A DNA stretch of 64,000 nt from Haladaptatus cibarius D43 (GTDB taxonomy: Archaea > Halobacteriota > Halobacteria > Halobacteriales > Haladaptataceae): positions 1-64,000 of the forward strand of contig NZ_JDTH01000013.1 of NCBI RefSeq assembly GCF_000710615.1, in the 5' to 3' direction. Of this stretch, positions 19,682-50,552 are shown in pieces; positions within the stretch are counted from its first letter, which is position 1; each line of letters opens with the position of its first letter. The notes under the pieces were generated by a model that saw nothing but the letters and a program-made list of their open reading frames with translations, was not told where the DNA came from and made no database searches. Position numbers and translations under genes: made by a program.

Positions 19682-20923
19682 TTAACTATATGAATCTTCT
19701 TCATGTGGGGAGCGTGCACCGCTCGGTTTCGCCCCATCGAGATAGACGATGTTCCCGCGTCCGACGCGAAGGCGGTTGACATCTCCGCGGTCTTCCATCC
19801 GTGAGAGCAGTCGGCTCACCTTCGACTTCGACCAGCCCGTCTCCTCGACGACGTCTACCTGCTTCATCCGCCCGCGATTTTCCCGGAGTAGTTGGAGGAC
19901 AACGCCTTCGTCGGTGAGGATGTCTTCCGACTCGTCTGCGTCCTCTTCGGGCGGTGGCGTTTCGTTCGTGTCGCGTACTTCTGTTACGGATACCGGTGGG
20001 TCGGAGTCGTCGTTGTTCGTTCTCCAAAGGAGTGCCGCCGCACCGACGACACCCATACCGACGATTGCGACGAGCAGCAACTGAACGCCTGAAATGCCAC
20101 CCGACTGCGCGTCCTCATCTCCCGGATTCGCCGCAGTCGTGTTGGTGGCGTCGTTTGGGTCGTTCGGATCGAGATTTGGGTCGTTGTATTCGGTTCCATC
20201 GTCGACTTTGTCCCCATCCGTATCGGGGTCGCTTGGGTCTGTGTCGATATTGAGTTCGAGTCCGTCACGAAGCCCATCGTTATCTGTGTCGGCTTTCGTG
20301 GGGTCGAGTCGCGGGTTGTCGTACTCCTGACCATCCGGGATGCCGTCGCCGTCCATATCCCAGTTGCGGAACGCGGTTTCGTTCCATCCCGTTTCACTCT
20401 GATTGACCTCGAACTCGTTTTCCAGTCCGTCGTTGTCCACGTCACCGCTCTTCGTGATGACGGTTTGGTTGATACTGCGGTTGTCTATCGTAGGCGCATC
20501 GTTGTTGAACGTCGGTCTGACGCGGAAGAAAATCGTTCGCTCGCCCGGTTCAACCGCTGTCGAGCCGTTGAGTTCGACGGTTGCGGTCGAACCATTTCCG
20601 ATTTTCGTGCTTCGACAGTCGAGTTCTTCGGCGTTACCACTCCCCCGACGCTCGTACAGACAGACCGCGTACTGGTCTTCGCTGGCGTTTATTTGAAACG
20701 TGACGTTGGCGGTGTACGGTTCGGATTGCCAAACATATGTCGTGTCAGCTGTCGTTGCAACGACGGCCGTTCCAGTTTGGTTGACGGTGACGATACGACC
20801 GACATCCGATTCGGATTGCCCACCCACGGACATCGGAACCGAAGCGAAACCGGCAACGACGAGAACGACGACAAACACGGCATAGAGCGTCCACCGGTCA
20901 CGGTTCCCGAAGCCGAGATACAT
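19682..20923 (-). CDS. Calcium-repeat membrane protein with cytoplasmic winged helix (copy 1)
   Basis: A 413-residue protein. A signal/anchor segment (about 11-30) precedes an ectodomain with YVWQSEP and one Cys pair (C88, C103). Four DxDxDG-type repeats follow (about 161-245), resembling thrombospondin type 3 calcium repeats. One membrane segment (about 280-300) then leads to an acidic linker and a winged helix (about 333-395) with TGWSKSKVSRLLSRME. The layout fits a one-protein sensor binding Ca2+ outside and DNA inside, though the calcium and DNA roles are inferred. The ATG at 20923 gives a normal signal peptide. A TTG at 20983 is possible. It follows the DUF7344-like gene at 21174 in the same direction. 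Confidence 0.78.
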   Translation of the reverse strand: MYLGFGNRDRWTLYAVFVVVLVVAGFASVPMSVGGQSESDVGRIVTVNQTGTAVVATTADTTYVWQSEPYTANVTFQINASEDQYAVCLYERRGSGNAEELDCRSTKIGNGSTATVELNGSTAVEPGERTIFFRVRPTFNNDAPTIDNRSINQTVITKSGDVDNDGLENEFEVNQSETGWNETAFRNWDMDGDGIPDGQEYDNPRLDPTKADTDNDGLRDGLELNIDTDPSDPDTDGDKVDDGTEYNDPNLDPNDPNDATNTTAANPGDEDAQSGGISGVQLLLVAIVGMGVVGAAALLWRTNNDDSDPPVSVTEVRDTNETPPPEEDADESEDILTDEGVVLQLLRENRGRMKQVDVVEETGWSKSKVSRLLSRMEDRGDVNRLRVGRGNIVYLDGAKPSGARSPHEEDSYS

Positions 20924-21173
20924 TTTTTTCGAGTACGTAGAGCGAGGTTTAGTACCTTCGGCATTTAGTTCTGTGTCAGACAAAACTAACGCATTAAAAT
21001 CTGAATTTATTAAAACATGTATGTATTTTTATACGTTCGATTTCCGTCTCTGAACGGTAGAACCATTCGACTACCACCTAAGTAGAAAGCCGGAGGCTGT
21101 TCGTAGTCGTCTCGGGACTGTGTTGGGGTTGGAAACGTTAGAAGCGGTGAATCTGAAACAACGGAACCCGTGA

Positions 21174-21767
21174 CTATCGAAGCGCAAACTGGGCACTCGA
21201 AATAGCGGCGTAGAGACAGACGACGAAGGCCCCGAGGACGTGTGTCGGAGCGGCAGAGAGAAGCGGGGCGTTCAACCACGCGGCGGCGAAGGTTCCGGCG
21301 CTCGCCGCGGTTGCCCAGCGATAGTAGCTAAACCAGCGGTCATCGTCCATTTCGGATTCGGCATCGGCCGCATCGTCCACGTTGGTACTGCCGACCGTCG
21401 TCGTGTCGAGGTACGGGTCGAACTGGTCTGCCAACGGGCCGCGTTCGACGATGCCGCGGCTTTGGTTGTACTCGATGATGCCCTCGTTGTCGAGTTTTGG
21501 GAGATGCGACTGGTAGAGGGCAATGTACACGCGCTGGCGCTCGTCCGAGGCGAGCGCTTGGAGGGTCGTGTCGTTCTCCCACGCGGCGACCTGTTCCGCG
21601 AGGTCGCGCATTTCGACCGCGCCGTCGTGTTCTTTCAGGTAGCGAAGCGCATGGCGTCTGCGCTGTGTCTGGAGGATGTGGAAAATTTTGTCCTTCGAGA
21701 GTTCGTCCGGGTCGTCGTCGTTCGGCAACGACGGGCCGTCAGAGAGAGTCTGCGTCGTAGCGCTCAT
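21174..21767 (-). CDS. DUF7344-like winged-helix protein with two C-terminal membrane segments (copy C)
   Basis: A 197-residue paralogue of the genes at 886, 2662 and 48285. KDKIFHILQTQRRRHALRYL, MRDLAEQVAAWEND and YQSHLPKLDNEGIIEYNQSRG form the winged helix. The C-terminus starts FSYYRWAT and carries two hydrophobic segments that match the others less closely. The ATG at 21767 is chosen; the long upstream extension is Cys/Arg-rich and unlikely. The calcium-repeat membrane regulator follows 250 nt downstream in the same direction. The same gene pair recurs at 48285-50552. Confidence 0.8.
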   Translation of the reverse strand: MSATTQTLSDGPSLPNDDDPDELSKDKIFHILQTQRRRHALRYLKEHDGAVEMRDLAEQVAAWENDTTLQALASDERQRVYIALYQSHLPKLDNEGIIEYNQSRGIVERGPLADQFDPYLDTTTVGSTNVDDAADAESEMDDDRWFSYYRWATAASAGTFAAAWLNAPLLSAAPTHVLGAFVVCLYAAISSAQFALR

Positions 21768-21947
21768 TGTCTTGATACAGGGCAGACATGGATAGCACAT
21801 AAAGCAAACCGACCCTCTCGCTTCCTTGCGAGCCGTTGCATTCCGTTTACGTCTTGCGATTGTACGATTTGAACGAAGCAAAATATTACTCAAAATTCAT
21901 ACTGGTTTCTAACTGAGTCATGGAATACGACAGATGTTAGGGAGTGT

Positions 21948-22133
21948 CTAACTTCCCCATAGCGATTGAGCGACTGTCAGCGCAGTGAACAACGCGATGA
22001 CGACGCCCGTTGATTGCATCATCGTGAGATGTTCGAGTGGCCCGAGGTTGAGCACGGTGCAACCGAACAGTAGTGTCGAAACTACTGACAGCCCGAGATA
22101 GTAGTGAGCGTACCGTGGCTCGTGTGTCGTCAT
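21948..22133 (-). CDS. Free-standing DUF7344-type membrane half (two membrane segments, no winged helix)
   Basis: A 61-residue protein aligning to the C-terminal membrane halves of the DUF7344-like copies: HYYLGLSVVSTLLFG here against EAYYLGISVFSTILLAG in copy B, and ALFTALTVAQ against AMFALVTLAQ. It lacks the winged helix. Its ATG overlaps the stop of the upstream glycosyltransferase by four bases (ATGA), so the two are translationally coupled. It may be a truncated relative or a small membrane partner of the full-length proteins. Length and composition argue against chance, since the match spans the whole protein. Confidence 0.7.
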   Translation of the reverse strand: MTTHEPRYAHYYLGLSVVSTLLFGCTVLNLGPLEHLTMMQSTGVVIALFTALTVAQSLWGS

Positions 22134-23044
22134 CCGATGTTCGCTCTGGCGCCAGAGTACAGGTTCATCATGAGTCCCGGAACTTGGCGCAGTTCAGGTC
22201 GTTTCGACCGTCGTAGATACCGGAACCCGGTACGGAACTGCCCTTCGTCCAGATAGTGTCTGGCGAGGATGTAGTTGTGTGCACCCGTGACGTCGATACC
22301 CTGCTGTTCGAGACGCTCGACTTCCTCGGCGAAGGTTCGTCGGTAGTGTTCGTCCGCCTTCGCCACCGCATCTGCCGGTGGTGACCCGGTTTCGTACCGG
22401 AGAAGCAGTGGTTCGTTCACGCAGGCGAGTTTGCCGTGTTTGAGGACGCGGATGAGGAACTCGGGGTCTTGAAACCGGTCGAACGACTCGTCGAAGCCGT
22501 CGATTTTTCGCGCAATGTCGCTTTCCACGATGAGGGTGGAACCGGCGCTGGTGTGAAGACTGTCGCTTAGCAGTGGCCCAATGAGTTCCTTGCCACCTTC
22601 CGCACCTTCGGTTTTGTTCCGCCGCGAAATCAGTTGTGTCGCCCACTTCATAATCGGATTCTGCCCGTCGGGATAGACGGTTTCCGCTTTACAGTAGGCC
22701 GCAATCCAGTCGTCCGACCGCAGTTGTAGAGTGAGAACTTGCTTTTCGAGTTTGGTCGGAAGCCAGACGTCGTCCGAATCGAGAAACGCCATGTACTCTC
22801 CTTCGGCGTGTTCGATTCCCGTATTTCGCGCAGCACTCGCACCCTGATTTTCTTCGTGTTCGAAAAAGCGGATTCGCTCGTCGTCGTAGGATGCGACGAC
22901 GTCTGCCGTGTCGTCGTCAGAAGCGTCGTCCACGATGATGAGTTCTAGCTTTTCGAGCGTCTGCGAAAGGACGCTCTCTACGGTTCGGGGCAGGGAATGT
23001 GCCCGGTTGTACGTCGGCACGATAACGCTCACAGTCGGGGCCAT
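22130..23044 (-). CDS. Family 2 glycosyltransferase
   Basis: A 304-residue GT-A fold enzyme. VSVIVPTYNRAHSL, DDASDDDT and AARNTGIEHAEGEYMAFLDSDDVW are the classic GT2 nucleotide-sugar and metal-binding motifs. The C-terminal half covers the acceptor side. There is no membrane segment, so it should act on a lipid-linked or soluble acceptor at the inner face. The ATG at 23044 is chosen because the frame beyond starts with TTG. A TATA-like GATAATAAAGC (sense strand, 23073-23083) is 30-40 nt upstream. It is the first clear glycan gene on this side of the locus. Confidence 0.92.
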   Translation of the reverse strand: MAPTVSVIVPTYNRAHSLPRTVESVLSQTLEKLELIIVDDASDDDTADVVASYDDERIRFFEHEENQGASAARNTGIEHAEGEYMAFLDSDDVWLPTKLEKQVLTLQLRSDDWIAAYCKAETVYPDGQNPIMKWATQLISRRNKTEGAEGGKELIGPLLSDSLHTSAGSTLIVESDIARKIDGFDESFDRFQDPEFLIRVLKHGKLACVNEPLLLRYETGSPPADAVAKADEHYRRTFAEEVERLEQQGIDVTGAHNYILARHYLDEGQFRTGFRYLRRSKRPELRQVPGLMMNLYSGARANIG

Positions 23045-23072
23045 TCGTTGCTCCAACGTCCGTCTCCTCGGG

Positions 23073-23084
23073 GCTTTATTATCG
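23073..23084 (-). promoter_or_regulatory. TATA-like element of the glycosyltransferase gene
   Basis: On the coding strand this reads CGATAATAAAGC. Similar RTAATAAARY elements precede several other genes of the glycan locus (near 26526, 30685, 40276, 47938 and 57815). Confidence 0.45.
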
Positions 23085-23089
23085 ACTTC

Positions 23090-23773
23090 CTAATCGTGAA
23101 GCGCCACCGCGAGCAGGACGACGGCGACGAGTAGGAGTACCAGCGAGCCCAGCGAAAGTCCGGACGGGCCGACCCCACCGGAAAATTTCGCGGTTTCGAC
23201 CGCAAGCAGTGCGACGAGTCCCGTCCCGGCGATATGCACGAGTTCCGTCTCGCGCGTTTCCCGACCACGGCCGAGATGCTCGCCGACGTTAATCGCGTGT
23301 TCTCCGGCATCCCACGCAACGACGGTTGCGGCCCCCGCCAGTAAGAGCGCCCCGAGCGAAACCGCGTTGAAGATGCCGGACGCGAGGACGGCGACGAAGA
23401 CGAGTCCCGTGCCAACTTTCACGAGCGTCCGTGACCCGGTTCCGCGCACGGGGACGAGCGCGAGCGCGAGGACGAAGATGCCGAACAGCCCCGGAATCAA
23501 TCGAATGATTCCACTCATTCCGACGACTCCCGAAAACGCGACGCCGACCGCACCAGCGAATCCTGCGAGGCCGAGCGTTCCGACCAACGCACCGGCGATT
23601 TTCCAGTCGCGTCGCCAGAGGCCGAAACCTCCGGTGAGTGCGGTCACGCCGACCGCTTCGAGCGCCAACGCGGTTGTTGATGCGTTCAGTTTCCACATCG
23701 CGGCCAGCGCGACACAGACCGCGAGCGCGCTGGCCAGCCGAGTCGGTCGCCGGGTTGCGATTGCTGTACTCAT
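23090..23773 (-). CDS. Polytopic membrane protein, DUF7519-like
   Basis: A 227-residue protein with about seven to eight hydrophobic segments and short loops. It ends a tightly packed minus-strand unit with DUF58, DUF7269-like and DUF4129-like genes, overlapping the DUF58 stop by four bases (ATGA). In haloarchaea such cassettes usually also carry a MoxR AAA ATPase gene. I see none here. The family name is recalled from such operons rather than searched. The function is unknown, probably envelope-related. Confidence 0.65.
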   Translation of the reverse strand: MSTAIATRRPTRLASALAVCVALAAMWKLNASTTALALEAVGVTALTGGFGLWRRDWKIAGALVGTLGLAGFAGAVGVAFSGVVGMSGIIRLIPGLFGIFVLALALVPVRGTGSRTLVKVGTGLVFVAVLASGIFNAVSLGALLLAGAATVVAWDAGEHAINVGEHLGRGRETRETELVHIAGTGLVALLAVETAKFSGGVGPSGLSLGSLVLLLVAVVLLAVALHD

Positions 23774-25017
23774 GCGTTCACCTTCCGTGGCCGGTTCATC
23801 AGCGCCGCGGCGAGCGGCGTTTCGGATTTCCATTCGACCACCGGCACACCGGACTTCCGGAGCGCACTGAGTCGATTTTCTCGTTCGACACCGGCGAGAC
23901 GCTGCCCGACGCTTTCCTCGCCGGTCACGTCCGGACTGATGACGCTCACCCGGTGGCCGTAGGCGTCCAGTCGCCGGGCCGTTTCGACGATTGCGTCGTC
24001 GGAAAGCGGCGACAGGAGGACGACCTGTGTCGTGCTCGAAAGCCGCATCCGAAGCTGTTCGACCTGTTCTTCGTGTTCTGGCTCCTCCGTCGGCGGTATC
24101 GAGGCGAAGGCGGAATGGGTTGCCAACAGTCGTTGTGCCTTCGCGCGATGGCTTCGTCCTGCACCGGGTTCGAGCCAACAGGCTTCCCGCCCGAACGCGG
24201 CAAGGCCGACGAGATTTCTGTCGCGGTGGAGTGAACCAAGCAACTGTTCGGCGGCGGAGACGCTGTACGCTACAGCGTGCGGTTCGTCGGTTGCGGCCCG
24301 ATATGCGACGGCGCGCGCGTCGACCAACAGCACGACGGTTGCCGCGTTCTCCTCGCGGTATTCGACGGTCGTCAGGTCGCCAGTTCGGGCGTACCGATTC
24401 CAGTCGATTCGGTGCATGGCATCACCAGCACGGTACTCCCGGGTGCGGTAGAATTCGATACCACTGCCACCTTTTTGCGCGACGATTCGTCCGACTTGGT
24501 CGAGGGTTTGATCGCGTAGTGGGCCGTCTGCCTCGGTTGCGGTGCAGTCGAGTTCGGTGTCAGCGGAGATGGTCGTCTCGACCTCCCATGCGCCACTGAT
24601 GTCGCGCGCGACGACCGTGGCGGGTTCGAACGGATGTTTTCCGTGTTTGGTGCCGACACGGTACGAAAAGCTGACCGACCGCCCCGGCCAGAAAACTGCG
24701 CCTTTTCGCGGCGAACCGACGGAAACGGAGAGTAGCGCGGGTACGCCGTCTACAATTCGAACGTCGGGAAGAAACCCGCCTTCGTTGGTCACCGTGACGG
24801 TGACCGTCACCTCGTCGCCGGGGCGAGGCGTGCTATTGCTCAGTCGTCGCTCGATGCGGAGTTTCGGCGTTGGTTCCGAGAGAACGTGGGGATACGCGGC
24901 GAAGACAACGCCGATAACCGAAAGCAGGAGCATCGACGGGCGGTCTATGGCGAGTCCGACTGCGCCCGCGGCCAGCGACAGCGCGATGACGCCGCGCCAG
25001 CGGTGCGTTTCCGTCAT
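23770..25017 (-). CDS. DUF58 domain protein (vWA-like fold)
   Basis: A 415-residue protein with two N-terminal membrane segments (about 8-45), a beta-rich domain (about 60-150), and the DUF58 core. The core includes FYRTREYRAGDAMHRIDWNRYARTG, the family signature, and VVLLVDARA, whose Asp is the metal-site position of vWA folds. It usually works with a MoxR ATPase in assembling cell-surface or membrane complexes. It overlaps its upstream neighbour by four bases, so the unit is one operon. Confidence 0.9.
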   Translation of the reverse strand: MTETHRWRGVIALSLAAGAVGLAIDRPSMLLLSVIGVVFAAYPHVLSEPTPKLRIERRLSNSTPRPGDEVTVTVTVTNEGGFLPDVRIVDGVPALLSVSVGSPRKGAVFWPGRSVSFSYRVGTKHGKHPFEPATVVARDISGAWEVETTISADTELDCTATEADGPLRDQTLDQVGRIVAQKGGSGIEFYRTREYRAGDAMHRIDWNRYARTGDLTTVEYREENAATVVLLVDARAVAYRAATDEPHAVAYSVSAAEQLLGSLHRDRNLVGLAAFGREACWLEPGAGRSHRAKAQRLLATHSAFASIPPTEEPEHEEQVEQLRMRLSSTTQVVLLSPLSDDAIVETARRLDAYGHRVSVISPDVTGEESVGQRLAGVERENRLSALRKSGVPVVEWKSETPLAAALMNRPRKVNA

Positions 25018-25595
25018 GCCATTTCACCCGTTTTGGCGATGGTTTCGGCGGTTCTTCGGGCGCAGTGTTGGTTCCACGTCCGTCCCCGCAGGAGTACGGC
25101 GGAACGAGTGCCGACGCCAGCGCCCGAAACCGTGGAATCGCCGATATAGGACGCCACGGCGGGGTCGTCCGTCCATTCTCCGGAATCTACCAGCCCGCGA
25201 GCCTCCTCACGGGAGCAGTTTTCGGCCCGCATGAGCGTCTCGATGGCCGCGGTTCGAAGCCGTTCGCGGACGTTTTTTCGCTGGCTTCGACCCACGAGCG
25301 GCAGGCGATACCGCCACGACCCGACGGTTTCGTCGAACGTGTATCCCGCGGACGGAACCGTCACCGGTTCCTCCGGGGCGGGCATTTCGGCTTGAACCAG
25401 ATTTCCATCTCGTCCCGACGCGAGTACCGGAATTGCGACGAGGAGGCCGAATCCGCCGATGGCGACGACGAGCAGATAGTCGTTGCCGAGGAGCGACAAT
25501 AGTGCTCGAACCGGAAGCGTTCCGGGGCCGCCAGCGACCGCCATCAGAACTGCAACTGCTCCGGAGAGTCCGAACAGGATACGACGACCATTCAT
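25014..25595 (-). CDS. Membrane protein, DUF7269-like
   Basis: A 193-residue protein with two hydrophobic segments near the N-terminus (about 5-22 and 38-58), then a cytoplasmic-looking domain containing ENCSREEARGLVDSGEWTDDPAVASYIGD. That 'SREEA...L..G.WTDD' element is typical of the DUF7269 partner in DUF58 cassettes. It overlaps the DUF4129-like gene upstream by four bases and DUF58 downstream by four. The start ATG at 25595 agrees with both overlaps. Confidence 0.72.
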   Translation of the reverse strand: MNGRRILFGLSGAVAVLMAVAGGPGTLPVRALLSLLGNDYLLVVAIGGFGLLVAIPVLASGRDGNLVQAEMPAPEEPVTVPSAGYTFDETVGSWRYRLPLVGRSQRKNVRERLRTAAIETLMRAENCSREEARGLVDSGEWTDDPAVASYIGDSTVSGAGVGTRSAVLLRGRTWNQHCARRTAETIAKTGEMA

Positions 25596-26335
25596 TGTCC
25601 GCCTCCCAGTCTGTCGGACTGATTTCGAGTTTGGCTGAGGCGGTCGTCGGTGATCGGCGCACCGCCGTACCGCACCTCCTCGAAGGTTTGCGTCAGCGTT
25701 TCTGCGGCGGTTCTGTCCGCACCAGCATCGACTGCCTCGCGGGCGCACTCGCCCGGCGTCTTGGTGTGTGGTTGCTCGACGCCGAACCGTTTGACCATCG
25801 ACCACCACGCCCGTTCGATTTCGTTCGACGGATTCGGCTCCGGCGGTGGCGGCCTGCGCGACCGAGCCGAACTATTCGGTTCGGTCGGGGAGTCAAACAG
25901 CCGACCGCCGAACCGCACGCCGAGTGCGATCCCTCCGGCAACTGCGACGAACGGAACGACCCAAATGAGCAGTTGCAGAAGCTGTTGAAGCAGTTCCATG
26001 AGCCGGTCGAGGAAATCCAACGGCTCTTTCGAAGCGTTCTTTTCGGACTGCTTTTGCTTCTGTTGCTGTTTGGTCGCGCTCGACTGCTGTTTCTGATTCG
26101 ATTGTGACTGCTGTTGGTCGTTTTGTGACTTCGCCGACTGCGGTTCGCCCTTCGATTGTGCTTCCTGTTTCAGCTCCCCTGCATCGTCCGGATTGATCGG
26201 AAGCGACTCGTAATTGACATCGATGACATCGTCGGGGTTGGTGTCCACCGACGACCCCAGCGTCGAAGCGGAGGTGCCGATAGCAAAGATACAACACAGC
26301 GCGATTCCGGCCGTGAGGAGTCTATCCGTATTCAT
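25592..26335 (-). CDS. DUF4129 domain protein
   Basis: A 247-residue protein. A hydrophobic signal/anchor (about 7-23) is followed by a long Gln/Lys/Ser-rich linker (about 50-100). A central membrane segment (about 119-141) precedes the DUF4129 domain, with NEIERAWWSMVKRFG and KTPGECAREAVDAGAD typical of the family. DUF4129 is often fused to transglutaminase-like domains, but no such domain is present. It is first of the DUF4129-DUF7269-DUF58-DUF7519-like unit. The divergent gene at 26560 begins 224 nt away. Confidence 0.82.
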   Translation of the reverse strand: MNTDRLLTAGIALCCIFAIGTSASTLGSSVDTNPDDVIDVNYESLPINPDDAGELKQEAQSKGEPQSAKSQNDQQQSQSNQKQQSSATKQQQKQKQSEKNASKEPLDFLDRLMELLQQLLQLLIWVVPFVAVAGGIALGVRFGGRLFDSPTEPNSSARSRRPPPPEPNPSNEIERAWWSMVKRFGVEQPHTKTPGECAREAVDAGADRTAAETLTQTFEEVRYGGAPITDDRLSQTRNQSDRLGGGQ

Positions 26336-26525
26336 ACAAGTCCGTCCCTGTCGGTGGTCGGCCGCCCTGTTCCACCGGTAACATGAATAGTCTATCACCC
26401 CTTTCCCGGTTAATTATAGACCTCGTAAAGTTTCAGTAGGCGTACCAGTACACCGAACGAACGACCGTTTCGTTCGGTTTCAGGCGGTGTCTATCGCTGA
26501 GAAGAACCCGCACGCTTAGCCACCC

Positions 26526-26535
26526 GATAATAAAC
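26526..26535 (+). promoter_or_regulatory. TATA-like element of the GT4 gene
   Basis: GATAATAAAC is centred about 30 nt before the ATG at 26560. It matches the RTAATAAARY pattern seen before other genes in this locus. Confidence 0.45.
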
Positions 26536-26559
26536 ATCGACGGACGCTTCCCATCTAGT

Positions 26560-27846
26560 ATGTCGAGCGACACGCACGCGCAGGTCACCGAACCGCCAGA
26601 CGCGGGGGACGTGCCACGAACGGAGGATGCACTCAAAAAAGGTGAGGTACCGCGAAATCACGATTTGGACGGACTGGCGGACAAAAACCTGCTCATCGTC
26701 TCGCACAGCTACAACCATTTCGTCAAGGGGCAGGTGGACGTGCTCGCCGACTATTTCAACGAAGTGTACGTTCTCGTCCGATACAACCGGTTCGCGGACG
26801 TCGCCGAATATCTCCCCATCGACTACGCGAAACCGTTCAGCAAGAGCGCGAAAATCAACGTCGAAGACAAACCGGCCAACGTGACGGTCGTCAGCACACC
26901 ACTGCTTTATCTCCCTATCGACCTTCACCGCCGATATCTCGGCGACCAACACGTGTTGAAGTTAAAGCGGACGCTCGCCAACCTCGCCGTCGAGTTCGAC
27001 GTGATTCATTCCCATCTAACGTGGACTGCTGGCTACGCCGGAACCGTCCTCGGGAAGCAACTCGGTATTCCGTCAGTTCTCACAGTTCATGAGAATCATG
27101 ACCTGTTCGTGGAGCAACTCGAATCCTCGAACGACAAAATAAATCGAACGTGGCGGGACGCCGACGCCATCGTTCGCGTGAATCAGCAAGACCAAGACAC
27201 GCTTCGACGGTTCAACGACGACGTGTACTACATCTCGAACGGCTTCAGCCAAGACCGCCTTCGCCGAGTGCCGCAGGCCGAGGCGAAGGCGGAAATCGGT
27301 GTCCCGGAGGATACGAGACTACTGTTCGCGCTCGGCCATCTAAAAGAACGGAAGGGGTTCCAGCATCTCATCAACGTGATGCCCGAAATCGTCGAAGCAG
27401 AGGGTGAAGTCGTCTGTGCAATCGGCGGTCACGGCGGAATGCGGGCCGACCTCGAAGCAAGAATCGAGGAGTTAGGACTCGACGATCGCGTCCGTCTGCT
27501 TGGCTACGTGTCGAACGAGGACTTGAAATACTGGATGAGTGCCAGCGACGCCTTCGTCCTGCCGAGTTACAGCGAGAGTTTCGGCCTCGTGCAGTTGGAA
27601 GCGATGGCCTGCGGGTCACCCGTCGTCTCGACGATAAACGGTGGAAGCGAAGAAGTCGTCACCTCAGAAGACCACGGCTTCCTCATCGACAGCCCGGAAG
27701 ATCACAACGCACTCGCGGATGCTGTCGTGCGCGCGCTTCAGAAGGATTGGAACCGCGATGGAATCGAAGCACACGCAGAACAGTTCACGTGGGAGCGCGT
27801 CTGTGTAGACATTGCGCATCTCTACGCCGAACTGCTCGAACTGTAG
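26560..27846 (+). CDS. Family 4 glycosyltransferase
   Basis: A 428-residue GT-B enzyme. An acidic extension (1-40) precedes LLIVSHSYNHFVKGQ. Later VIHSHLTWTAGYAG lines the acceptor side, and the C-terminal half has LFALGHLKERKGFQHLI and the GT4 E-x7-E motif in SYSESFGLVQLEAMACG. It would retain the anomeric configuration of the donated sugar. No membrane segments are visible. It opens the rightward part of the glycan locus and is followed by a Tat-exported beta-helix gene. Confidence 0.93.
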   Translation: MSSDTHAQVTEPPDAGDVPRTEDALKKGEVPRNHDLDGLADKNLLIVSHSYNHFVKGQVDVLADYFNEVYVLVRYNRFADVAEYLPIDYAKPFSKSAKINVEDKPANVTVVSTPLLYLPIDLHRRYLGDQHVLKLKRTLANLAVEFDVIHSHLTWTAGYAGTVLGKQLGIPSVLTVHENHDLFVEQLESSNDKINRTWRDADAIVRVNQQDQDTLRRFNDDVYYISNGFSQDRLRRVPQAEAKAEIGVPEDTRLLFALGHLKERKGFQHLINVMPEIVEAEGEVVCAIGGHGGMRADLEARIEELGLDDRVRLLGYVSNEDLKYWMSASDAFVLPSYSESFGLVQLEAMACGSPVVSTINGGSEEVVTSEDHGFLIDSPEDHNALADAVVRALQKDWNRDGIEAHAEQFTWERVCVDIAHLYAELLEL

Positions 27847-27876
27847 CCAAAAATCTATTTTCCCCGACATGATGGA

Positions 27877-41632: not shown

Positions 41633-41646
41633 TAGACGAAGTGTTC

Positions 41647-42321: not shown

Positions 42322-42370
42322 GGCTTTCCGTCTTCTCGGGTGCGAGAAAAGAATTTACATCGTTAGCGAA

Positions 42371-44362
42371 TCAGATCGTCTGATTCGCACACATCGTCAC
42401 ATCGCCGTTGTTGTAGAGCACACTCTGGCTCGGACGACAGACATCCTCTCTCGGAATCGTTCGGCTGATCGGAACACTTGCGTTCTCGCTCTCGTTGACG
42501 AGACGGTAGTTCGGCGCACCTGTAGACTGATACGTCCGATAGACGGTGATGGGATGGTCAGTCGGCCCCCCATCTACCGAGACGTTGAACGGAGCCGCTG
42601 GATACGCCCCTGTTCTGGCGAACACCGTCTGATACGGATGGTCAGTGCGAAGCACCTGCCGCGGTAGGATGTTCGAGGAGTCCGGCGACCCGGTCATCGT
42701 CCCGATAGTCGAGACGGCGGCGACCTCCTGTTCAGTGTACGTCAACCGTGTCTGCTCCTGCTCGAAGACGGGACTGTCGAGCGTCCCGTGACCCGAAATC
42801 ACCATCACGCCCGGATAGATGAGGGCGACGACGAGCAGAGTAGCCACGGCGACGTTCCGGTTGAGGTTGTAGACGAGGTAGGCCACGCCCAGCGCGGCAA
42901 GGATAGCCATCGGCGCGTAGAGGAACGCGAACCACCGTTGCGGGATGAAGTTTCGGATACCGAACAGCGGCAGACCGAGCGTGAACCCGGTCATCACCAC
43001 GGTTGCGAACAACAGGGTGAACACGGAGTGTGAGATGCGTTTGCGCCGGAGGACGTACAGACAGCCCACGACGGTCAGGCCGAACAGCACCAAGAAGCCT
43101 ATCGTCTCGGTGTACGTCGCCACGTTGTCCATGAACGTCGGCGGCGGCAGTGCGATACCAGCGGCGCTGTCGCCCGGATTTACGAGATTCATAAATCCGA
43201 AGCTCTCTCGCATGGTTTGCCCGAGGTACAACAGGACGGTTTCGAGGAACGAATCCCCGTTGTACGGCGTGAACGACCACATGAACGTGATGAGGCCGAT
43301 GTCGAACGCCAACAGTCCCGCGAGGTTGACCGGTTCGATTTTTCGGTAGACGCCCGGCCTCCGCGCCGTCGTCTGTCGGAAGATGCCGAGTCGTAGAATG
43401 AACTGCGCGGCCAATCCCGAAAACAGCACGACGAGCATGATGAACGTCGAAACTTGGTGTGTCAGGATGATGGCGATGGAAAGGAACACGAGCAGACCGA
43501 AATCTCGCGCGTTGTATTCCAGTTCCATGATACGCATGAGAGCGTAGAGGATACCGGCGAAGAACAGCAGGCCGTGACTCGTTGGGATGATGTGGATACC
43601 CCACTCGATGACGTAGTCGCCAATCGAGTAGAGCATGGCCGCGAACACGGCCCACCGCGCCGGAACGAGCAGTTTAGTCGCCCCGTACACGAACAGAATT
43701 ATCATCGGCATTGCGATGCCGACGGAGAGATAGAGCGCGTTGCGGAGCGACACATCGTACAGCATCGCCGCCGACGCGACGAGTACGTGGTACAGCGGTG
43801 CGGCGATGTGTTTGTTCCCTTCCATCGAAGCGAGCGAACGCTCGTCGAGGATACCCTGCGACAAATCCGCCACGTGTGTCCAGATGTCGATTCCGATGTA
43901 CGTCGGCGTGGTGTACACCGCCATAAATCGGATGACGAACGCGAGGACGAGAATTTGGGTGAGCAGCAGGGCTGGCAGGAAATCCTCATCGTCGGTGAAC
44001 AGGATTTGGAGTACGATGAGCGTCCCCGCGAAGCCGGAGAGGCCGTGAAAGAGCAACGACCGCTCGCCCGAGTAGAGCGCGACGGCGACCATCGCCGCTG
44101 TCGTCACGAAGACGAAACTCGGTAGTAACTGTGCGACTGGGCGTGAAAGTGACGGGAATACATCCATCGACTCGCGGCCATTCCGAACTGCGAGAAGGTA
44201 GAGTCCACAGCCCAGTCCGAGGACGATTGGAATCGTTTGGATGTAAATCTGGGAAGCGAAAAACCGCAGTGGTAACAGCCCCAGTGCGATTATGAAGCCG
44301 ATAATCGCGGCATCCACGTCGAATCGCCGCTTTTGCAGCCAGCCAGCCACTCGTCCGAACAT
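42371..44362 (-). CDS. Large polytopic membrane protein, possible GT-C glycosyltransferase
   Basis: A 663-residue protein with about 13-14 membrane segments in residues 15-510 and an extracytoplasmic C-terminal domain (about 510-663). The first large loop carries TYIGIDIWTHVADL, an acidic motif placed as the catalytic loop is in GT-C enzymes (GT39/OST-like). Such enzymes use lipid-linked sugars on the outer face. I cannot confirm the catalytic Asp. It ends an operon with DUF354, GT2 and dehydrogenase genes. A polymerase (Wzy-like) role is an alternative. Confidence 0.7.
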   Translation of the reverse strand: MFGRVAGWLQKRRFDVDAAIIGFIIALGLLPLRFFASQIYIQTIPIVLGLGCGLYLLAVRNGRESMDVFPSLSRPVAQLLPSFVFVTTAAMVAVALYSGERSLLFHGLSGFAGTLIVLQILFTDDEDFLPALLLTQILVLAFVIRFMAVYTTPTYIGIDIWTHVADLSQGILDERSLASMEGNKHIAAPLYHVLVASAAMLYDVSLRNALYLSVGIAMPMIILFVYGATKLLVPARWAVFAAMLYSIGDYVIEWGIHIIPTSHGLLFFAGILYALMRIMELEYNARDFGLLVFLSIAIILTHQVSTFIMLVVLFSGLAAQFILRLGIFRQTTARRPGVYRKIEPVNLAGLLAFDIGLITFMWSFTPYNGDSFLETVLLYLGQTMRESFGFMNLVNPGDSAAGIALPPPTFMDNVATYTETIGFLVLFGLTVVGCLYVLRRKRISHSVFTLLFATVVMTGFTLGLPLFGIRNFIPQRWFAFLYAPMAILAALGVAYLVYNLNRNVAVATLLVVALIYPGVMVISGHGTLDSPVFEQEQTRLTYTEQEVAAVSTIGTMTGSPDSSNILPRQVLRTDHPYQTVFARTGAYPAAPFNVSVDGGPTDHPITVYRTYQSTGAPNYRLVNESENASVPISRTIPREDVCRPSQSVLYNNGDVTMCANQTI

Positions 44363-44404
44363 CTTATTGCCTCCGTCCGTCGATTCGTAGTTCCGTCATA
44401 GTAC

Positions 44405-45466
44405 TTAAACCTCTGCGCCAGATGTGTGAGTTTGGCCGTCCGTTTGCCGAGAGCGGCCTGTAACCGCACGCAAAATTACGTCGGTCGTATCGACCTTATC
44501 GTCGAGCAGACGCGCTCGATGTTCGTCCCAGTCCTCGTCACCTTCGAGGATAGAGACTGCTTTGTCGAGGGCTAATGCGTGGCGGTCGTCGTCTTGATAG
44601 TTGAACAGCAGTCCGTAGCGTTCGTCCAATTCGTTCGTGTAGCCCATCGTGAGGGTGTTGACGTAGATGGCCGGCGTGCCGAGAACTGCGCTTTCGGCCG
44701 CCATCGTCGCACCTTCGCCGATAAAGAGGTCGGCATACGCCAGCAGGTCGTGCATTCGATGGGGTTCGACCGTCGCACGATACGATTCGAGTTCCGATGG
44801 AAGCGAACGCTCCGAGGTAATGAGCACCTCGGCACCCGCGTTTTCGAGTCGTTCGACCACGTCTTGTACGTCGCCGAAACCACCTTGCCCAACGTCGTGG
44901 GACGCGCCCCACTCGATGAGTCGAAGCACGACGAATTTGTCGTCTGGGTCGAGTCCGAGGTCGGAGACGACGGTCGAGTCGGGCGTAAAGCGGTTCGGGT
45001 GGAGATACGCGAGTTCGTGGTAACCGGGGTATCGAACCTGTTTCGGCCCGATGCTTCGCGTGTAGCAGTCGGGGGTATAAACGGCATCAGCGAACGGGAA
45101 CGCGAGGTTTTGGATGAGTTTCGCGTGTTCCGTGTCGTAAAAGATGGCGCTCCGCGCGCCGACGACTTTTGCGATGTGGGCCGCCGCGACCCCGCCAATA
45201 GCGGTTATCACGTCGGGTTTCAACTGCACTGCTCGGCGGAGCAAGCGCGCCTCGTAGGTCGCCTGCACGCGCGCCAACTGTGACAGTCCGGACGCAGTGC
45301 CAGCCAACACTTCGTGTGAAATGTCGTATCGCTGAAGCAGTTCCACCGCCATCTCCTTCTCGCGGGCGAAGACGTGAACGTCGTGGCCTTCGCTCTCCAA
45401 CTCCGAAATCGCGTTCCGGAAGAAGTGGACGTGCGCCGGATGTTGAATCGTCACGAACACCCTCAT
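44405..45466 (-). CDS. DUF354 protein, GT-B-like
   Basis: A 353-residue protein starting MRVFVTIQHPAHVHFFRN, the DUF354 signature. Later VITAIGGVAAAHIAKVVG and DLFIGEGATMAAESAVLGTPAIYVN resemble the nucleotide-sugar-binding half of GT-B enzymes (UDP-GlcNAc 2-epimerase / MurG type). The family is uncharacterised. It could be a glycosyltransferase or a nucleotide-sugar epimerase. Its ATG overlaps the stop of the upstream GT2 by four bases. Confidence 0.85.
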   Translation of the reverse strand: MRVFVTIQHPAHVHFFRNAISELESEGHDVHVFAREKEMAVELLQRYDISHEVLAGTASGLSQLARVQATYEARLLRRAVQLKPDVITAIGGVAAAHIAKVVGARSAIFYDTEHAKLIQNLAFPFADAVYTPDCYTRSIGPKQVRYPGYHELAYLHPNRFTPDSTVVSDLGLDPDDKFVVLRLIEWGASHDVGQGGFGDVQDVVERLENAGAEVLITSERSLPSELESYRATVEPHRMHDLLAYADLFIGEGATMAAESAVLGTPAIYVNTLTMGYTNELDERYGLLFNYQDDDRHALALDKAVSILEGDEDWDEHRARLLDDKVDTTDVILRAVTGRSRQTDGQTHTSGAEV

Positions 45467-46419
45467 CGGTTCTCCCTCCTGTCGAGGACGACTCCGGCGA
45501 CGATGCCGACCACGCCGAGCACGAGCGACGTGAGCGACTTCTGCGCGTCGTCGTTCTCCGCTCCCGTGACGGCGGAGCCGACTGCTCTGAACCCGTGAAC
45601 GACGCCAGCAAGCGCCGCGATGATACCAAGTGCGTAGGCGACTCCAAGCGGGTGGGTGCGGTAGCGCGAACCCAATCGCCAGAAGAAGTTGCCCAACAGC
45701 ATGAGCGACACCTTCGGGATGTAGTCGCCGTACTCGATGCTACTCTCTTCATCGCCGTAGGCCGCAGGCATGTCCACGTCGGCGACTCGCATTCCCGCCA
45801 CATTCAGCTTGACGAGGATGTCGTTGCAGTAGCCGTAGTACTCATACATCTCTTCGAGGTCGATTGCCTCCAGTGCCGAAATCGAGATGGCCGTGTAGCC
45901 GTTCTGCGGGTCAGTAATATCCCAGTAGCCGCTGGCGATTCGCGTCAATCCGGTCAACAACCAGTTGCCGAGCAGGCGGAACCGCGGCATCGCGCTCCGG
46001 AACTCGGAGTTCGAGAGTCGGTTTCCTTTGGTGTAGTCGGCCTCACCGGCCACGATAGGGTCTAGGAATCGCGTCATCATCGAGGGATCCATCTGACCGT
46101 CCGCGTCGATGGTGACCGTCACGTCGGTTCCATCGTCGCGCGCGGCGAGGTAGCCGGTCTTGATGGCCCCGCCAGCACCGCGGTTCTGGTTGTGCCGGAT
46201 AGCGACGACCTGTCCGTCGGTGTCGTCACTCACGCCAGCGCGCGGCGCGCGCTCGACCGCAGCGTACTCACGAATCTCGTCCCACGTACCGTCAGTCGAG
46301 GCGTCGTCTACAGCGTAGACGCGGTCTACGAAGTCGGGAAGCGAATCGAGGACATCGCCGACGAACCCTTCTTCGTTGTACGCGGGCACGACGACGCCTA
46401 TCGTGTGCCCTTCGTACAT
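45463..46419 (-). CDS. Family 2 glycosyltransferase with C-terminal membrane segments
   Basis: A 318-residue protein. IGVVVPAYNEEGFV, VDDASTDGT and VTIDADGQMDP are the GT2 motifs of dolichyl-phosphate sugar synthases and relatives. Two hydrophobic segments near the C-terminus (about 245-265 and 290-312) anchor it. It may make a polyprenyl-phosphate sugar or start a chain. The ATG at 46419 lies one base after the dehydrogenase stop, and the stop overlaps DUF354 by four bases, so this is one operon. Confidence 0.9.
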   Translation of the reverse strand: MYEGHTIGVVVPAYNEEGFVGDVLDSLPDFVDRVYAVDDASTDGTWDEIREYAAVERAPRAGVSDDTDGQVVAIRHNQNRGAGGAIKTGYLAARDDGTDVTVTIDADGQMDPSMMTRFLDPIVAGEADYTKGNRLSNSEFRSAMPRFRLLGNWLLTGLTRIASGYWDITDPQNGYTAISISALEAIDLEEMYEYYGYCNDILVKLNVAGMRVADVDMPAAYGDEESSIEYGDYIPKVSLMLLGNFFWRLGSRYRTHPLGVAYALGIIAALAGVVHGFRAVGSAVTGAENDDAQKSLTSLVLGVVGIVAGVVLDRRENR

Positions 46420-46420
46420 C

Positions 46421-47791
46421 CTACACCCTCCGGTAGGAGAATCCGGCTTCAGAAACCGCTTCCTCGTCGAATGCACCGGTTACGTCCACGAAAGCAGGCT
46501 TCTCGTTCATCCGGCCTGCAATCGCCTCCAAATCGAGGTCGTAGAACTCGTGGTGCGGCGTAGCGAGGACGATGCCGTCAAATTTCTCGAACTCCGGTTC
46601 GTCCGTGTCCTGCACCGAGATACCAAACTGGTCGCGCATTAGGTCGTTGTCCCCGTGTGGGTCGTAGCCAATCGTCTCGATGTCGTATTCGTGGAGTTGT
46701 CGGATGATTCCGTCCACTTTCGAGGTGCGAATGTCGGCCACGTCGGGCTTGTAGGTGAGTCCGAGAACGAGGACACGACTGTCTCGGAGCGTCTTGCCCG
46801 CACGATTCAGCTCCTTTATCATCATGTTGGAGACGTGTGCGGGCATCGCCTCGTTCACGTTTCGACTCTGTTCGATGAGGTGTGGCGCGTAGCCAGCCTG
46901 CTTGGAACGGTGGATGAAGAAGTACGGGTCAACTGGGATGCAGTGACCGCCGACCAGTCCGGGGCGGTAGTTGTGGAAATTCCACTTCGTGCCCGACGCT
47001 TCGAGTACTGCACGCGTGTCGATGTCCATGTCCATACCGTCGAACGCCATCGCAAGTTCGTTCACGAGGGCGATATTCAGGTCGCGCTGGACGTTTTCGA
47101 CGACTTTGCTCGCCTCCGCAACTTCCAGCGAGGCGGCCTTGTGGACACCCGCGTCGATGACCGTCTCGTAGAGGTCTGCGACGTCGTCACGAACTTCGTC
47201 GTTCATGCCACCGACGACTTTCACCACGTCGCGCAGTCCGTGTTCCGGGTCACCCGGCGTCGCGCGTTCGGGTGAGTAGCCGACGTAGAAGTCCTCGCCG
47301 CACGTCAGCCCGGAAGCGGCTTCGATTGCGGGGACAAGTACTTCGCGGGTCGCACCCGGGAAGACGGTCGATTCGAGGATGACCGTCGTTCCGGGGGACA
47401 TGTGTTCGCCCACAGTGCGTCCGGCGCTCTCGACGAAATCGAGGTTGGGTTGTTCGTTCTGGTCAACGGGCGTGGGAACCGTAATCATCACGTAGTCCGC
47501 GTTGGCGATGTCCGCCTCGTCGGTCGTGTACGTGATTTCGCTCTCGGCAATCGTGTCGTCACCGAGGTCGCCCGTCGTGTCGGTGCCACCGCGAAGGGTT
47601 TCGACTTTTCCGTCGTCGATGTCGAAACCGACGACGCTGTATCCTTCCTGGTCAAAGCCGACCGCCAGTGGAAGGCCAACGTAGCCAAGACCGACAACAC
47701 AAATCGTCGCGTCTCGACTGTCTTTCGCGTCGCTCTCCTCGGTTCCAGCATGGTCCGGCTGGCTGTCGATGTCTCCTATCGTCGAGTTCAT
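46421..47791 (-). CDS. UDP-sugar dehydrogenase (WecC/UGD-like)
   Basis: A 456-residue protein. An acidic head (1-27) precedes the NAD site VVGLGYVGLPLAVGF. YSPERATPG and the catalytic Cys284 in LVGGHCIPVDPYF identify the nucleotide-sugar dehydrogenase family that oxidises C6 to a carboxylate in two steps. GHCIPVDPYF is more like WecC (UDP-ManNAc dehydrogenase) than typical UDP-glucose dehydrogenase, but the substrate cannot be settled by eye. It is the first gene of the minus-strand operon running to 42371 and would supply uronic acids to the polymer. Confidence 0.94.
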   Translation of the reverse strand: MNSTIGDIDSQPDHAGTEESDAKDSRDATICVVGLGYVGLPLAVGFDQEGYSVVGFDIDDGKVETLRGGTDTTGDLGDDTIAESEITYTTDEADIANADYVMITVPTPVDQNEQPNLDFVESAGRTVGEHMSPGTTVILESTVFPGATREVLVPAIEAASGLTCGEDFYVGYSPERATPGDPEHGLRDVVKVVGGMNDEVRDDVADLYETVIDAGVHKAASLEVAEASKVVENVQRDLNIALVNELAMAFDGMDMDIDTRAVLEASGTKWNFHNYRPGLVGGHCIPVDPYFFIHRSKQAGYAPHLIEQSRNVNEAMPAHVSNMMIKELNRAGKTLRDSRVLVLGLTYKPDVADIRTSKVDGIIRQLHEYDIETIGYDPHGDNDLMRDQFGISVQDTDEPEFEKFDGIVLATPHHEFYDLDLEAIAGRMNEKPAFVDVTGAFDEEAVSEAGFSYRRV

Positions 47792-48284
47792 GATGATGTT
47801 CCTCCGTCGTTCGCTCTTCGACGCCGTTTTCAGGCACCGAAGCGACCGGTAGTAGGGCGTTCGGAGGTGTGGTACCCTATAGTCCGGTCGGACGCGAGCC
47901 TCACTTCAATCCATGAAACCCTGTAGGCTTTATTATACAGTGGCTAAGCCCCTCACGCCCGAAAACGCGTGTTTCGCCAATTATTTTTCGTGGTGGATAA
48001 CCACATGGTTGTCAGTACCATAGTTTGATACATCAACAATAATTAAATTCGAACAGATGACACGGAAGCAGTACAAAGAAGCGCATTCTGACCACCTCAA
48101 TAGGAATCCGATGTCCACTATAGTATGAAAATAAGTGTAGGTTAGAAATCGATAGACTGCGCGGAGATAAACTCGGTACAACGGTTCGAAAGGTAATCGA
48201 ACTGGAAAGAACGATGCGGGAAAGAGCTTGCAACGTCCGGGAGGGGGTTCCCGCTTTATTATCCGTCCCAGTAACTCACGAAAC
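47792..48284. other. Divergent intergenic region of about 490 bp with promoters
   Basis: It lies between the dehydrogenase operon (minus) and the DUF7344-like gene (plus). GCTTTATTATAC at 47938-47949 (coding-strand TATAATAAAGC) may be the operon promoter, giving a leader of about 125 nt. GCTTTATTATCC at 48253-48264 is about 26 nt before the ATG at 48285. The rest is AT-rich and non-coding. This is the right edge of the glycan locus. Confidence 0.5.
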
Positions 48285-48860
48285 ATGAGCACGACGACAC
48301 AACAGGTTGGGAACCAGTCCGAGACGCCCACGGACGAGGACGCGCACGTAGAGTTGAGCGAAGATCAGATTTATCATCTCCTTCAGAACGAACGACGCCG
48401 CAACGTCCTCCGGTATCTACACGATGCGGACGAACAGGTTTCGATGCGTGACATCGCGGAGCAGGTCGCGGCGTGGGAAAACGACATCACGGTGCAGACC
48501 CTCTCGTCCAGCGAGCGCCAACGAGTTTACATCCCTCTGTATCAGTCTCATCTCCCGAAACTCGACGAGGAAGGCGTCATTGAGTACGACCAGAGTCGCG
48601 GTACGGTTCGAAAAACCCCCCTCGCGGACAAACTGTACGATTACCTCGAACCGACCCAGCCGACCACTGACGAAGAAGTAGAAGACGACGAGGACACCCA
48701 CTGGGAGCGATATTACCTCGGTGCGTCCGGACTCGGCGCAACCGTCCTCGCTGGAACGACGCTCGGCGTCACGCCGTTTGCGCTTCTTCCACAAAGCGCG
48801 CTCGGATTTCTCATCCTCGGAATGTTCTGGTCGTTGACTGTCGGCCAGCGATTTGCGTGA
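48285..48860 (+). CDS. DUF7344-like winged-helix protein with two C-terminal membrane segments (copy D)
   Basis: A 191-residue paralogue of copies A-C. EDQIYHLLQNERRRNVLRYL, MRDIAEQVAAWEND and YQSHLPKLDEEGVIEYDQSRGTV form the winged helix. The C-terminus starts ERYYLGASGLG and has two hydrophobic segments. The ATG at 48285 is supported by the TATA box at 48253-48264. The calcium-repeat protein follows 261 nt downstream, repeating the gene order at 21767-19682. It is probably membrane-tethered, with an unknown regulatory target. Confidence 0.82.
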   Translation: MSTTTQQVGNQSETPTDEDAHVELSEDQIYHLLQNERRRNVLRYLHDADEQVSMRDIAEQVAAWENDITVQTLSSSERQRVYIPLYQSHLPKLDEEGVIEYDQSRGTVRKTPLADKLYDYLEPTQPTTDEEVEDDEDTHWERYYLGASGLGATVLAGTTLGVTPFALLPQSALGFLILGMFWSLTVGQRFA

Positions 48861-49121
48861 GTTCGAACCCTAGTGGGTCGATAAATAGTCCCGAATATCG
48901 TGTTAGTTCCCAACTAACACGTATATAAAAAGAGATTGATACAGGTTCCGTACCGGTGATTTTCATGAGTAGAAGCGTGAATGGTCGTAGATAGCTCAAA
49001 AGACCTGACTAAATCCAAAAAATATATACAATAGAAATTCAACCCCAAAGGAAAAATACTCGTTGCAGAGATACCAAACACAGGACGGTTCACACTCTGA
49101 AACCGGTACACCGACCTCGAA

Positions 49122-50552
49122 ATGAACATGACAAACAGGCCATTCGTAATATTCTATACGTGCCTACTTCTGTTCGCCACCGTAACACCCGCGGCGACAG
49201 TCGCACAGACATCGGGTAATCAATTCGTCATTCAAAGTGTCACGTACGCGGGGGCGGGCGTTGCCGAGACTGGCGAGAACAATACATATCTCTGGCAGTC
49301 AGAGCCGCACAATCTGACAGTGAACGTCTACACCGGAAATCGTTCCGGTAATTACAACGTCTGCACAGGATACCGAGCGCCAGAAAACAACACCACGGAT
49401 ACGGTCGCGTGCAAAGATGTGTCGTTCAGTTCTAATTCGACACAGCGCGTCAACTTCACGTTCGGCTCAGCTCCGAATATGAGCGGCGAGCGGATTGCGA
49501 CTGTCACTGTAGAGGACGGCGGAAACGTTGTCGCACGGGAGACGATGCCGGTATATATCATGTCGAAGTCCGGTGACGAGGACGACGACGGACTGCTAAA
49601 CGAGAGGGAAATAGAGCTCGGAACCAACGCCACGGCCTCCGATTCCGATAAGGACGGCCTCGGTGACGGCGAAGAAATAAACACGTACGAAACCAACCCG
49701 GCAAAGGCGGATACGGACGACGATGGGCTTCGAGACGCAGAGGAGATACAGCTAGGGACGGATCCGAACCGCCCCGACACTGATGCCGACGGATTGCTCG
49801 ACGGGCGAGAACGGGAAGTCGGAACGAACGCGAGCGCCGCAGATACCGACAATGACGGGCTAACTGACGTTGCGGAGCTAAACGTCAGTACCGACCCGAC
49901 GAAACCTGACACGGACGGCGATGGTCTGAGCGATGCCAAAGAACTTGAGGCGAGAACGGATCCGGCCGAAGCGGACACCGACGGCGACGGACTCGATGAC
50001 GGGGAGGAAAAAGAACTGGGGACAGACCCGCTCGCGGCGGATTCGGACGGTGATGGCCTGAACGATGGGAAAGAGGTCGAAATCGGTACAGACCCACTCG
50101 ACGGAGATACCGACGATGACGGACTCGGCGACGGGTTCGAGCATCGATTCGGAACGAATCCGAAAAGCCCTATCATCGCAGGCGGGTTGTATCTCGTCTT
50201 GCTGAGCCTACTCATCGGCGGTGCGGTGCTGTTCCAACGAAATGGGACGGAGTGGCTCTCCGGAGCACTTGACGGCGAAGAGGTAGAACCGAAGTCGGAA
50301 CAGACACAAACCAACGACGTGGTGACCGACGCCGACCGCGTCCTCTCTCTCCTGCGAGAGAACGGGGGTCGACTTCCACAGAGCGACATAATCGAAAAAA
50401 CCGGGTGGTCGAAGTCGAAAGTGAGCCGACTGCTATCGAAGATGGAAGACAAACAGCAGATCAGCAAAATCAACATCGGTCGGAAGAACATCGTCATCCT
50501 CTATGGACAGGAACCAGGGAATATGGGTTCTTCGACGGGAGAAAAACAATAA
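49122..50552 (+). CDS. Calcium-repeat membrane protein with cytoplasmic winged helix (copy 2)
   Basis: A 476-residue paralogue of 19682-20923. A signal peptide (about 9-28) is followed by an ectodomain with YLWQSEP and a Cys pair (C81, C97). Nine DxDxDG-type repeats occupy about 152-340 against four in copy 1. One membrane segment (about 352-371) leads to an acidic linker and the winged helix (about 400-465), with TGWSKSKVSRLLSKME nearly identical to copy 1. The difference in repeat number suggests different reach or calcium response. An alternative start is the ATG at 49128. Confidence 0.8.
   Translation: MNMTNRPFVIFYTCLLLFATVTPAATVAQTSGNQFVIQSVTYAGAGVAETGENNTYLWQSEPHNLTVNVYTGNRSGNYNVCTGYRAPENNTTDTVACKDVSFSSNSTQRVNFTFGSAPNMSGERIATVTVEDGGNVVARETMPVYIMSKSGDEDDDGLLNEREIELGTNATASDSDKDGLGDGEEINTYETNPAKADTDDDGLRDAEEIQLGTDPNRPDTDADGLLDGREREVGTNASAADTDNDGLTDVAELNVSTDPTKPDTDGDGLSDAKELEARTDPAEADTDGDGLDDGEEKELGTDPLAADSDGDGLNDGKEVEIGTDPLDGDTDDDGLGDGFEHRFGTNPKSPIIAGGLYLVLLSLLIGGAVLFQRNGTEWLSGALDGEEVEPKSEQTQTNDVVTDADRVLSLLRENGGRLPQSDIIEKTGWSKSKVSRLLSKMEDKQQISKINIGRKNIVILYGQEPGNMGSSTGEKQ

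Follow-up and report, generated by a model that had tools for sequence, protein, structure and literature searches.

Paired membrane-anchored winged-helix proteins and a near-private promoter box in a conserved haloarchaeal glycan locus

A glycan locus of the haloarchaeon Haladaptatus cibarius D43 (18075..60953) holds two pairs of genes for putative membrane-tethered regulators, together with a promoter box that is nearly private to this locus. The window analysed here comprises positions 1 to 64,000 of contig NZ_JDTH01000013.1, which has a length of 73.8 kb. In each pair a DUF7344 gene is followed by a gene that ends in a DUF7343 winged helix-turn-helix (wHTH): P2 (21174..21767, minus strand) and P1 (19682..20983, minus) form module A, and P3 (48285..48860, plus) and P4 (49122..50552, plus) form module B. 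With only modest confidence we favour reading P1 to P4 as membrane-tethered one-component transcription regulators of the glycan locus. The domains, the topology-compatible models, the conservation of the neighbourhood and the box with its locus specificity are computed; DNA binding, the signal, the box reader and the sign of regulation are inferred. What emerges is a widespread pair of candidate regulators tethered to the membrane, the conserved glycan locus that houses them and a promoter box nearly private to it, and with these the switching of archaeal surface polysaccharides becomes testable. Of the new results the box is of most use, as it opens both the regulon and its reader to direct tests. 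The parts of the literature accessible to our search describe no regulator of haloarchaeal polysaccharide synthesis.

Domain layout of the paired proteins

The initial annotation had placed a DUF7344-like gene, followed by a calcium-repeat/membrane/winged-helix gene, at 21767-19682 (minus) and again at 48285-50552 (plus), and both the coordinates and Pfam agree with it. P2 and P3 match DUF7344 (PF24035) with E-values of 1.2e-31 and 6.6e-32 and scores of 109.3 and 110.1 bits, above the gathering cut-off of 27.8. The DUF7343 wHTH (PF24034) is found in P1 and P4 at E 1.3e-25 and 1.7e-24 (89.5 and 85.9 bits; gathering cut-off 27.6). TSP3_bac repeats reach 136.4 bits in seven stretches of P4, and 24.4 bits in P1, slightly below the cut-off of 25. 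The order of the genes and their inverted, outward orientation are as annotated, and the proteins are indeed paralogous: P2 and P3 share 45% identity, P1 and P4 28% overall, with the best alignment in the wHTH. A similar spacing of about 250 nt had also been proposed. The P3-P4 gap measures 261 nt; the P2-P1 gap is 190 nt if P1 begins at the TTG of its open reading frame, and 250 nt if it begins at the ATG at 20923. Because an in-frame stop codon lies between these two codons in two orthologues, the ATG is the more likely start, and both gaps would therefore be about 250-260 nt long.

How are these proteins built? AlphaFold models P2 (39-sequence alignment, predicted local distance difference test score, pLDDT, 86) with a predicted cytoplasmic wHTH at about residues 25-109 and long helices compatible with two C-terminal transmembrane (TM) segments, joined by a linker of only about 20 low-confidence residues. 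Foldseek retrieves generic wHTH folds for it, with weak E-values. P1 (pLDDT 80) begins with a hydrophobic N-terminal helix (29-47), continues with a nine-strand beta-sandwich ectodomain (62-176) and a TSP3 stretch, and ends with a TM helix (299-321) and the C-terminal DUF7343 wHTH (358-415). Its sandwich resembles NPC2 and FnIII domains, and Foldseek returns Ig/FnIII/NPC2-like folds. P4 likewise has a TSP3-rich ectodomain (seven Pfam repeats), a TM segment and a C-terminal DUF7343 wHTH. Across 34 relatives the sequence WSKxKVSRLL of the recognition-helix region is invariant, and two cysteines of the ectodomain vary little or not at all. A wHTH and TM segments thus lie in one chain, and Pfam and the models show neither a kinase nor a receiver domain. 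By Pfam and the models of P1 and P2, the layout of the four proteins fits that of membrane-bound one-component transcription regulators, which would bind DNA and exert signal-dependent control.

ArnR and ArnR1 of Sulfolobus acidocaldarius are membrane-bound one-component regulators that carry an HTH at the N-terminus and two TM segments at the C-terminus; ArnR also contains a sensor domain and a putative HAMP, and its targets are archaellum and pilus genes (PMC6396743). P2 and P3 share the N-terminal HTH and the two C-terminal TM segments, a likeness in layout only, and the control of surface structures by ArnR is a further, proposed parallel to the locus of P2 and P3. Unlike ArnR, they have only a short linker, show no HAMP match in Pfam and are partnered with an ectodomain protein; we do not assign them to the ArnR family. 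P1 and P4 call to mind another design. ToxR and CadC are one-component proteins with a single TM segment, an N-terminal cytoplasmic OmpR-type wHTH and a C-terminal outer domain. Here too, one TM segment links an outer sensor to an inner wHTH, but the polarity is reversed, with the outer sensor at the N-terminus and the wHTH at the C-terminus; moreover, the wHTH matches IclR/MarR models, and TSP3 repeats are present. We considered P1 and P4 as members of the ToxR/CadC group and rejected this on account of the reversed domain order and the IclR/MarR-like wHTH.

The Pfam entries PF24034 and PF24035 record no function, and a search for DUF7343 and DUF7344 in the literature accessible to us returned no mention and no characterised protein. 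A sequence search of solved structures gave no match for DUF7344 and, for P1, only EF-hand/TSP3-like matches. With about 34 DUF7344-like matches and about seven DUF7343-like genes in the whole genome, both families are expanded here. Two further DUF7344 genes (871-1458, plus; 2662-3315, minus) and a DUF7504-DUF7343 gene (4713-5783, minus) lie in the window. A 61-residue two-TM gene (21948..22133, minus), similar to a DUF7344 tail lacking the wHTH, overlaps the stop codon of a GT2 gene by 4 bp; it adjoins GT2 at each Haladaptatus module A locus examined and in Halomicrococcus, and is possibly a DUF7344 partner with a dominant or linking role.

The glycan locus and its promoter box

The locus contains genes for GlmU, GT2, DUF58/DUF7269/DUF4129, GT4, beta-helix, flippase, FkbM, deacetylase and AsnB-like proteins, followed by DUF1616, DUF354, GT2, UGD, GlmS, PGM, a PMT-like protein, arylsulfotransferase (ASST), SBP and a PAP2-like protein. 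Judging from these genes, the product could plausibly contain uronic acid (UGD), an amino sugar (GlmS, GlmU) and, less surely, sulfate (ASST). The locus is syntenic across the Haladaptatus genomes examined. Most of these genes also occur, many of them with 50-60% identity and in a rearranged order, on the Haloferax megaplasmids pHGLR2 (H. gibbonsii) and pHME505 (H. mediterranei), and on both replicons one DUF7344-DUF7343 pair adjoins the orthologous GT2 gene (56% identity), as a pair does in Halomicrococcus, where gene order is also altered.

Does this locus possess a control element of its own? Comparison of orthologous promoters revealed the shared sequence TTTATTATNNNGTGGCTAAG, which reads CTTAGCCAC-N3-ATAATAAA in gene direction. 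At up to one mismatch the latter has three matches in the genome, all in this locus. Its core, TTAG-N7-ATAATWAW, has ten exact matches in the 3.93-Mb genome, six of them within this locus, which makes up 1.9% of the genome (p 8.6e-9; the count in this locus is partly by construction). These six boxes precede genes or operons for GlmU (18031..18049, plus, TTAG-N7-ATAATTAT, 25 nt before the ATG), GT2 (gene GT22130; 23075..23093, minus), GT4 (gene GT26560; 26516..26534, plus, 25 nt upstream), DUF1616 (40268..40286, plus, 26 nt upstream), the UGD-GT2-DUF354 run (47929..47947, minus, 137 nt before the UGD ATG) and ASST (57816..57834, minus). The ATG usually follows the box by 25-30 nt, as with leaderless transcripts. 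Across Haladaptatus loci, TTAG stands at exactly -11 of TATA-like sequences at 51 sites, compared to an average of 0.22 for the other offsets, and in random or unpaired loci no TTAG was found at this position. In six other Haladaptatus genomes, 6-8 of 9-13 box matches fall in the glycan locus, and in Halomicrococcus 7 of 9 fall on its 79.8-kb plasmid (binomial p < 1e-7 in each case); more distant genomes have 0-3 matches. The box shows that the locus has what we predict to be a dedicated control element.

A perfect dyad, CGTGTTAGTT-CCC-AACTAACACG (48899..48921), lies between P3 and P4. Its core, TTAG-N7-CTAA, is conserved in 6 of 8 orthologous P3-P4 gaps, with a compensated change from GTG/CAC to GTA/TAC among Haladaptatus; it was not found in the Halomicrococcus gap, where P4 is missing. 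We rejected the dyad as a regulon-wide operator, since it is the sole match in the genome at up to one mismatch; autoregulation of P4 through it is plausible. The TTAG-N7 spacing is the same in dyad and box, which may be a coincidence.

Which protein might read the box? P2 alone among P1 to P4 is shared by all ten Haladaptatus and Halomicrococcus genomes with the box, and it is therefore the first candidate. In the mechanism we propose, the extracellular beta-sandwich and calcium-type TSP3 repeats of P1 and P4 would sense the state of envelope or glycan, or divalent cations, and one TM segment would connect them to the cytoplasmic winged helix; P2 and P3 would present winged helices on a two-TM anchor. 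The six operon promoters with their TTAG-N7-TATA box would mark a dedicated regulon, read by P2; P1 and P4 would act beside it as sensors or modulators, and P4 might in addition control itself through its own dyad. The initial annotation had suggested surface-sensing regulation of the glycan locus: the domain layout fits membrane sensing, the locus-specific box speaks for it, and control of the glycan genes is the part of that proposal that stays conjectural. In a bolder version, which we regard as improbable, a single wHTH dimer of the pair would read both TTAG-N7-CTAA upstream of P4 and the matching half-site plus TATA (TTAG-N7-ATAA) at the promoters of the six glycan operons. This would make the locus a self-contained regulon under direct membrane control, its calcium-binding, sugar-facing ectodomains sensing the polymer that the locus itself makes; if true, this would constitute a cell-surface feedback loop without kinases.

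Several further non-coding elements were seen. One of the four off-locus boxes (L225:1035-1053; C2:193534) precedes the gene for a malectin-domain protein, a possible outlying member of the regulon. A variant form of the box, which in relatives reads CTAGCCAC-CCG-ATAATTAA, lies in the divergent deacetylase/beta-helix promoter region (35530-35610); close by is TTGTCTGAC, which also occurs in the P1 leader. About 100 nt upstream of P2, a non-coding block (21800..21885, minus) is strongly conserved in eight Haladaptatus genomes, and the P4 promoter and leader (49010-49120; CAACCCCAAAGGAAAAATAC and its flanks) are highly conserved across the genus. Both the P2 upstream block and the P4 leader motif are single copies in the genome and were rejected as regulon motifs.

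Conservation of the pairs and rival explanations

A single search through archaeal and bacterial genomes with the pattern WSK[SA]KVSRL yielded 80 haloarchaeal loci. We scored a locus as paired when an adjacent DUF7344 gene lay on the same strand, and as having glycan context when at least two of GT2, GT4, UGD and flippase genes lay within 10 kb. Among the 44 TSP3-type loci, 27 are paired. Glycan context was found at 19 of these 27, versus 1 of 17 unpaired loci (Fisher p 2.8e-5; kinship ignored) and 2 of 22 random 20-kb windows. The adjacency and the enrichment near glycan loci that the initial annotation had anticipated are thus both seen, kinship aside, and the DUF7344-DUF7343 pairing recurs in at least six genera. 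Taken together, an association of the pair with glycan loci is suggestive. Unpaired TSP3-DUF7343 genes (L107, L113 and L082, from several haloarchaea) often adjoin a gene that we read by eye as uvrC; by their sequence neighbourhood, those beside the uvrC-like gene read like a distinct subfamily with a synteny of its own.

Within Haladaptatus the pairs have persisted unevenly. P2 is kept in 9/9 genomes and in Halomicrococcus; P1 was lost from four genomes (G005-G008) that retain P2, and P3 from two (G006 and G008) that retain P4. P4 is present in 9/9 Haladaptatus genomes and was not found in Halomicrococcus, where UGD and GlmS flank a P3 relative (59% identity) that has no adjacent P4. With partners lost separately in three combinations, we rejected an obligate two-gene unit, and the module working strictly as a unit, as first annotated, has to be given up. 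In the DUF7343 tree, P1 groups with Halomicrococcus and next with Halorussus-like copies, and P4 falls in another clade; the DUF7344 tree gives the same grouping for module A. Modules A and B occupy different clades, both of which include relatives from other genera, and therefore diverged before the genus arose, which excludes a recent flanking duplication. By their place in these trees, the two pairs are ancient paralogues whose clades are as old as the family.

Several results weigh against regulation of the glycan locus by the pairs. Other DUF7344 loci of this genome show glycan context in 2 of 14 cases, and a general enrichment of the family near glycan genes here was accordingly rejected. 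On the tree, adjacency and glycan context each change only 8-9 times and leave at most three usable independent pairs, so that these data do not separate the association from common descent. Within 10 kb of the Halorussus-like pairs (L084, L085) and of several Haloarcula pairs, glycan genes are few or absent. The box was not found in the Haloarcula, Halorussus-like and Natronococcus loci and is weak in Haloferax, and the motif was first seen in the very locus where we count it; unlike that count, its rarity elsewhere and its recurrence in Halomicrococcus are not products of construction. Neither P1 nor P3 is indispensable in related species. Finally, a TFB gene on the same replicon (L197:13013-13717, minus; C13 73013-73717), 98-100% identical over 234 residues in ten genomes including Halomicrococcus, is as co-distributed with the box as P2. 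Could this TFB paralogue, or another regulator encoded there (HTH_10/Bat-like, a HalX response regulator or another DUF7344 protein), read the box, and the pairs control something else, for instance only themselves or membrane events? This is the main rival explanation, and we hold it to be somewhat unlikely. The box abuts the TATA box by its computed position, and TFB and upstream activators act next to the TATA box; genes for HTH_10/Bat, HalX and KaiC lie at 4-9 kb. TTAG, however, starts 11 nt before the TATA-like element, slightly past the usual TFB recognition element (BRE), the extreme conservation of the TFB suggests a general factor, which would leave a near-private box unexplained, and in Haloferax and others the pairs remain at glycan loci.

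The pairs might also be hitch-hikers, abundant DUF7343 and DUF7344 genes inherited along with an old syntenic glycan locus and functionally unconnected to it. We judge this clearly unlikely. The size of both families in this genome, the uninformative tree-aware test and the lack of glycan enrichment at other DUF7344 loci all speak for it; yet the pair adjoins the same GT2 gene although order and orientation differ between Haladaptatus and Haloferax, both members have long been preserved, and Haladaptatus keeps two copies per locus. The initial annotation had further considered that the copies sit on both edges of the locus and that a flanking duplication brought the island in. On such a reading, the inverted pairs would delimit a glycan island of recent acquisition. 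Their inverted, outward arrangement would agree with this, as would a TnpB-like gene (so assigned by reading its sequence) inserted between P3 and P4 in H. halobius (L064:11745-12398). But the copies belong to separate clades with relatives in other genera and are not each other's closest relatives, synteny of the locus holds throughout the Haladaptatus genomes examined, and locus genes extend past both pairs: GlmU at 18.1-19.3 kb on one side, GlmS at 50.9-52.7 kb, PGM, PMT-like, ASST and PAP2-like genes at 53-61 kb and an SBP gene on the other, several of the outer genes being orthologous to Haloferax locus members. The pairs therefore lie inside a conserved haloarchaeal glycan locus and not at island edges, and we rejected a recent duplication or mobile island, which we consider very improbable.

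Related loci and the contig

The Haloarcula hispanica genes for an acidic exopolysaccharide (EPS), HAH_1662/1667 (PMC5467301) and AepG (PMC9943897), resemble this locus, as far as the accessible parts of these papers describe them, in exopolysaccharide synthesis, glycosyltransferases and uronic acid or sulfate chemistry; the same parts describe no regulator for these EPS genes. We suspected that the pHME505 locus of H. mediterranei is the known EPS cluster of that species, which could not be established; the HFX_52xx genes lie on pHM300 (PMC8387396), so we make no such claim. The only hisS match of the genome, a histidyl-tRNA synthetase gene (12512-13876, minus), lies on this 74-kb contig, together with an Orc1/Cdc6 gene (62211-63419) that borders on DNA of 41% GC. 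Four other Haladaptatus genomes and Halomicrococcus have hisS on records named plasmids. With its sole hisS and its Orc1/Cdc6 gene, the contig looks like a small essential chromid.

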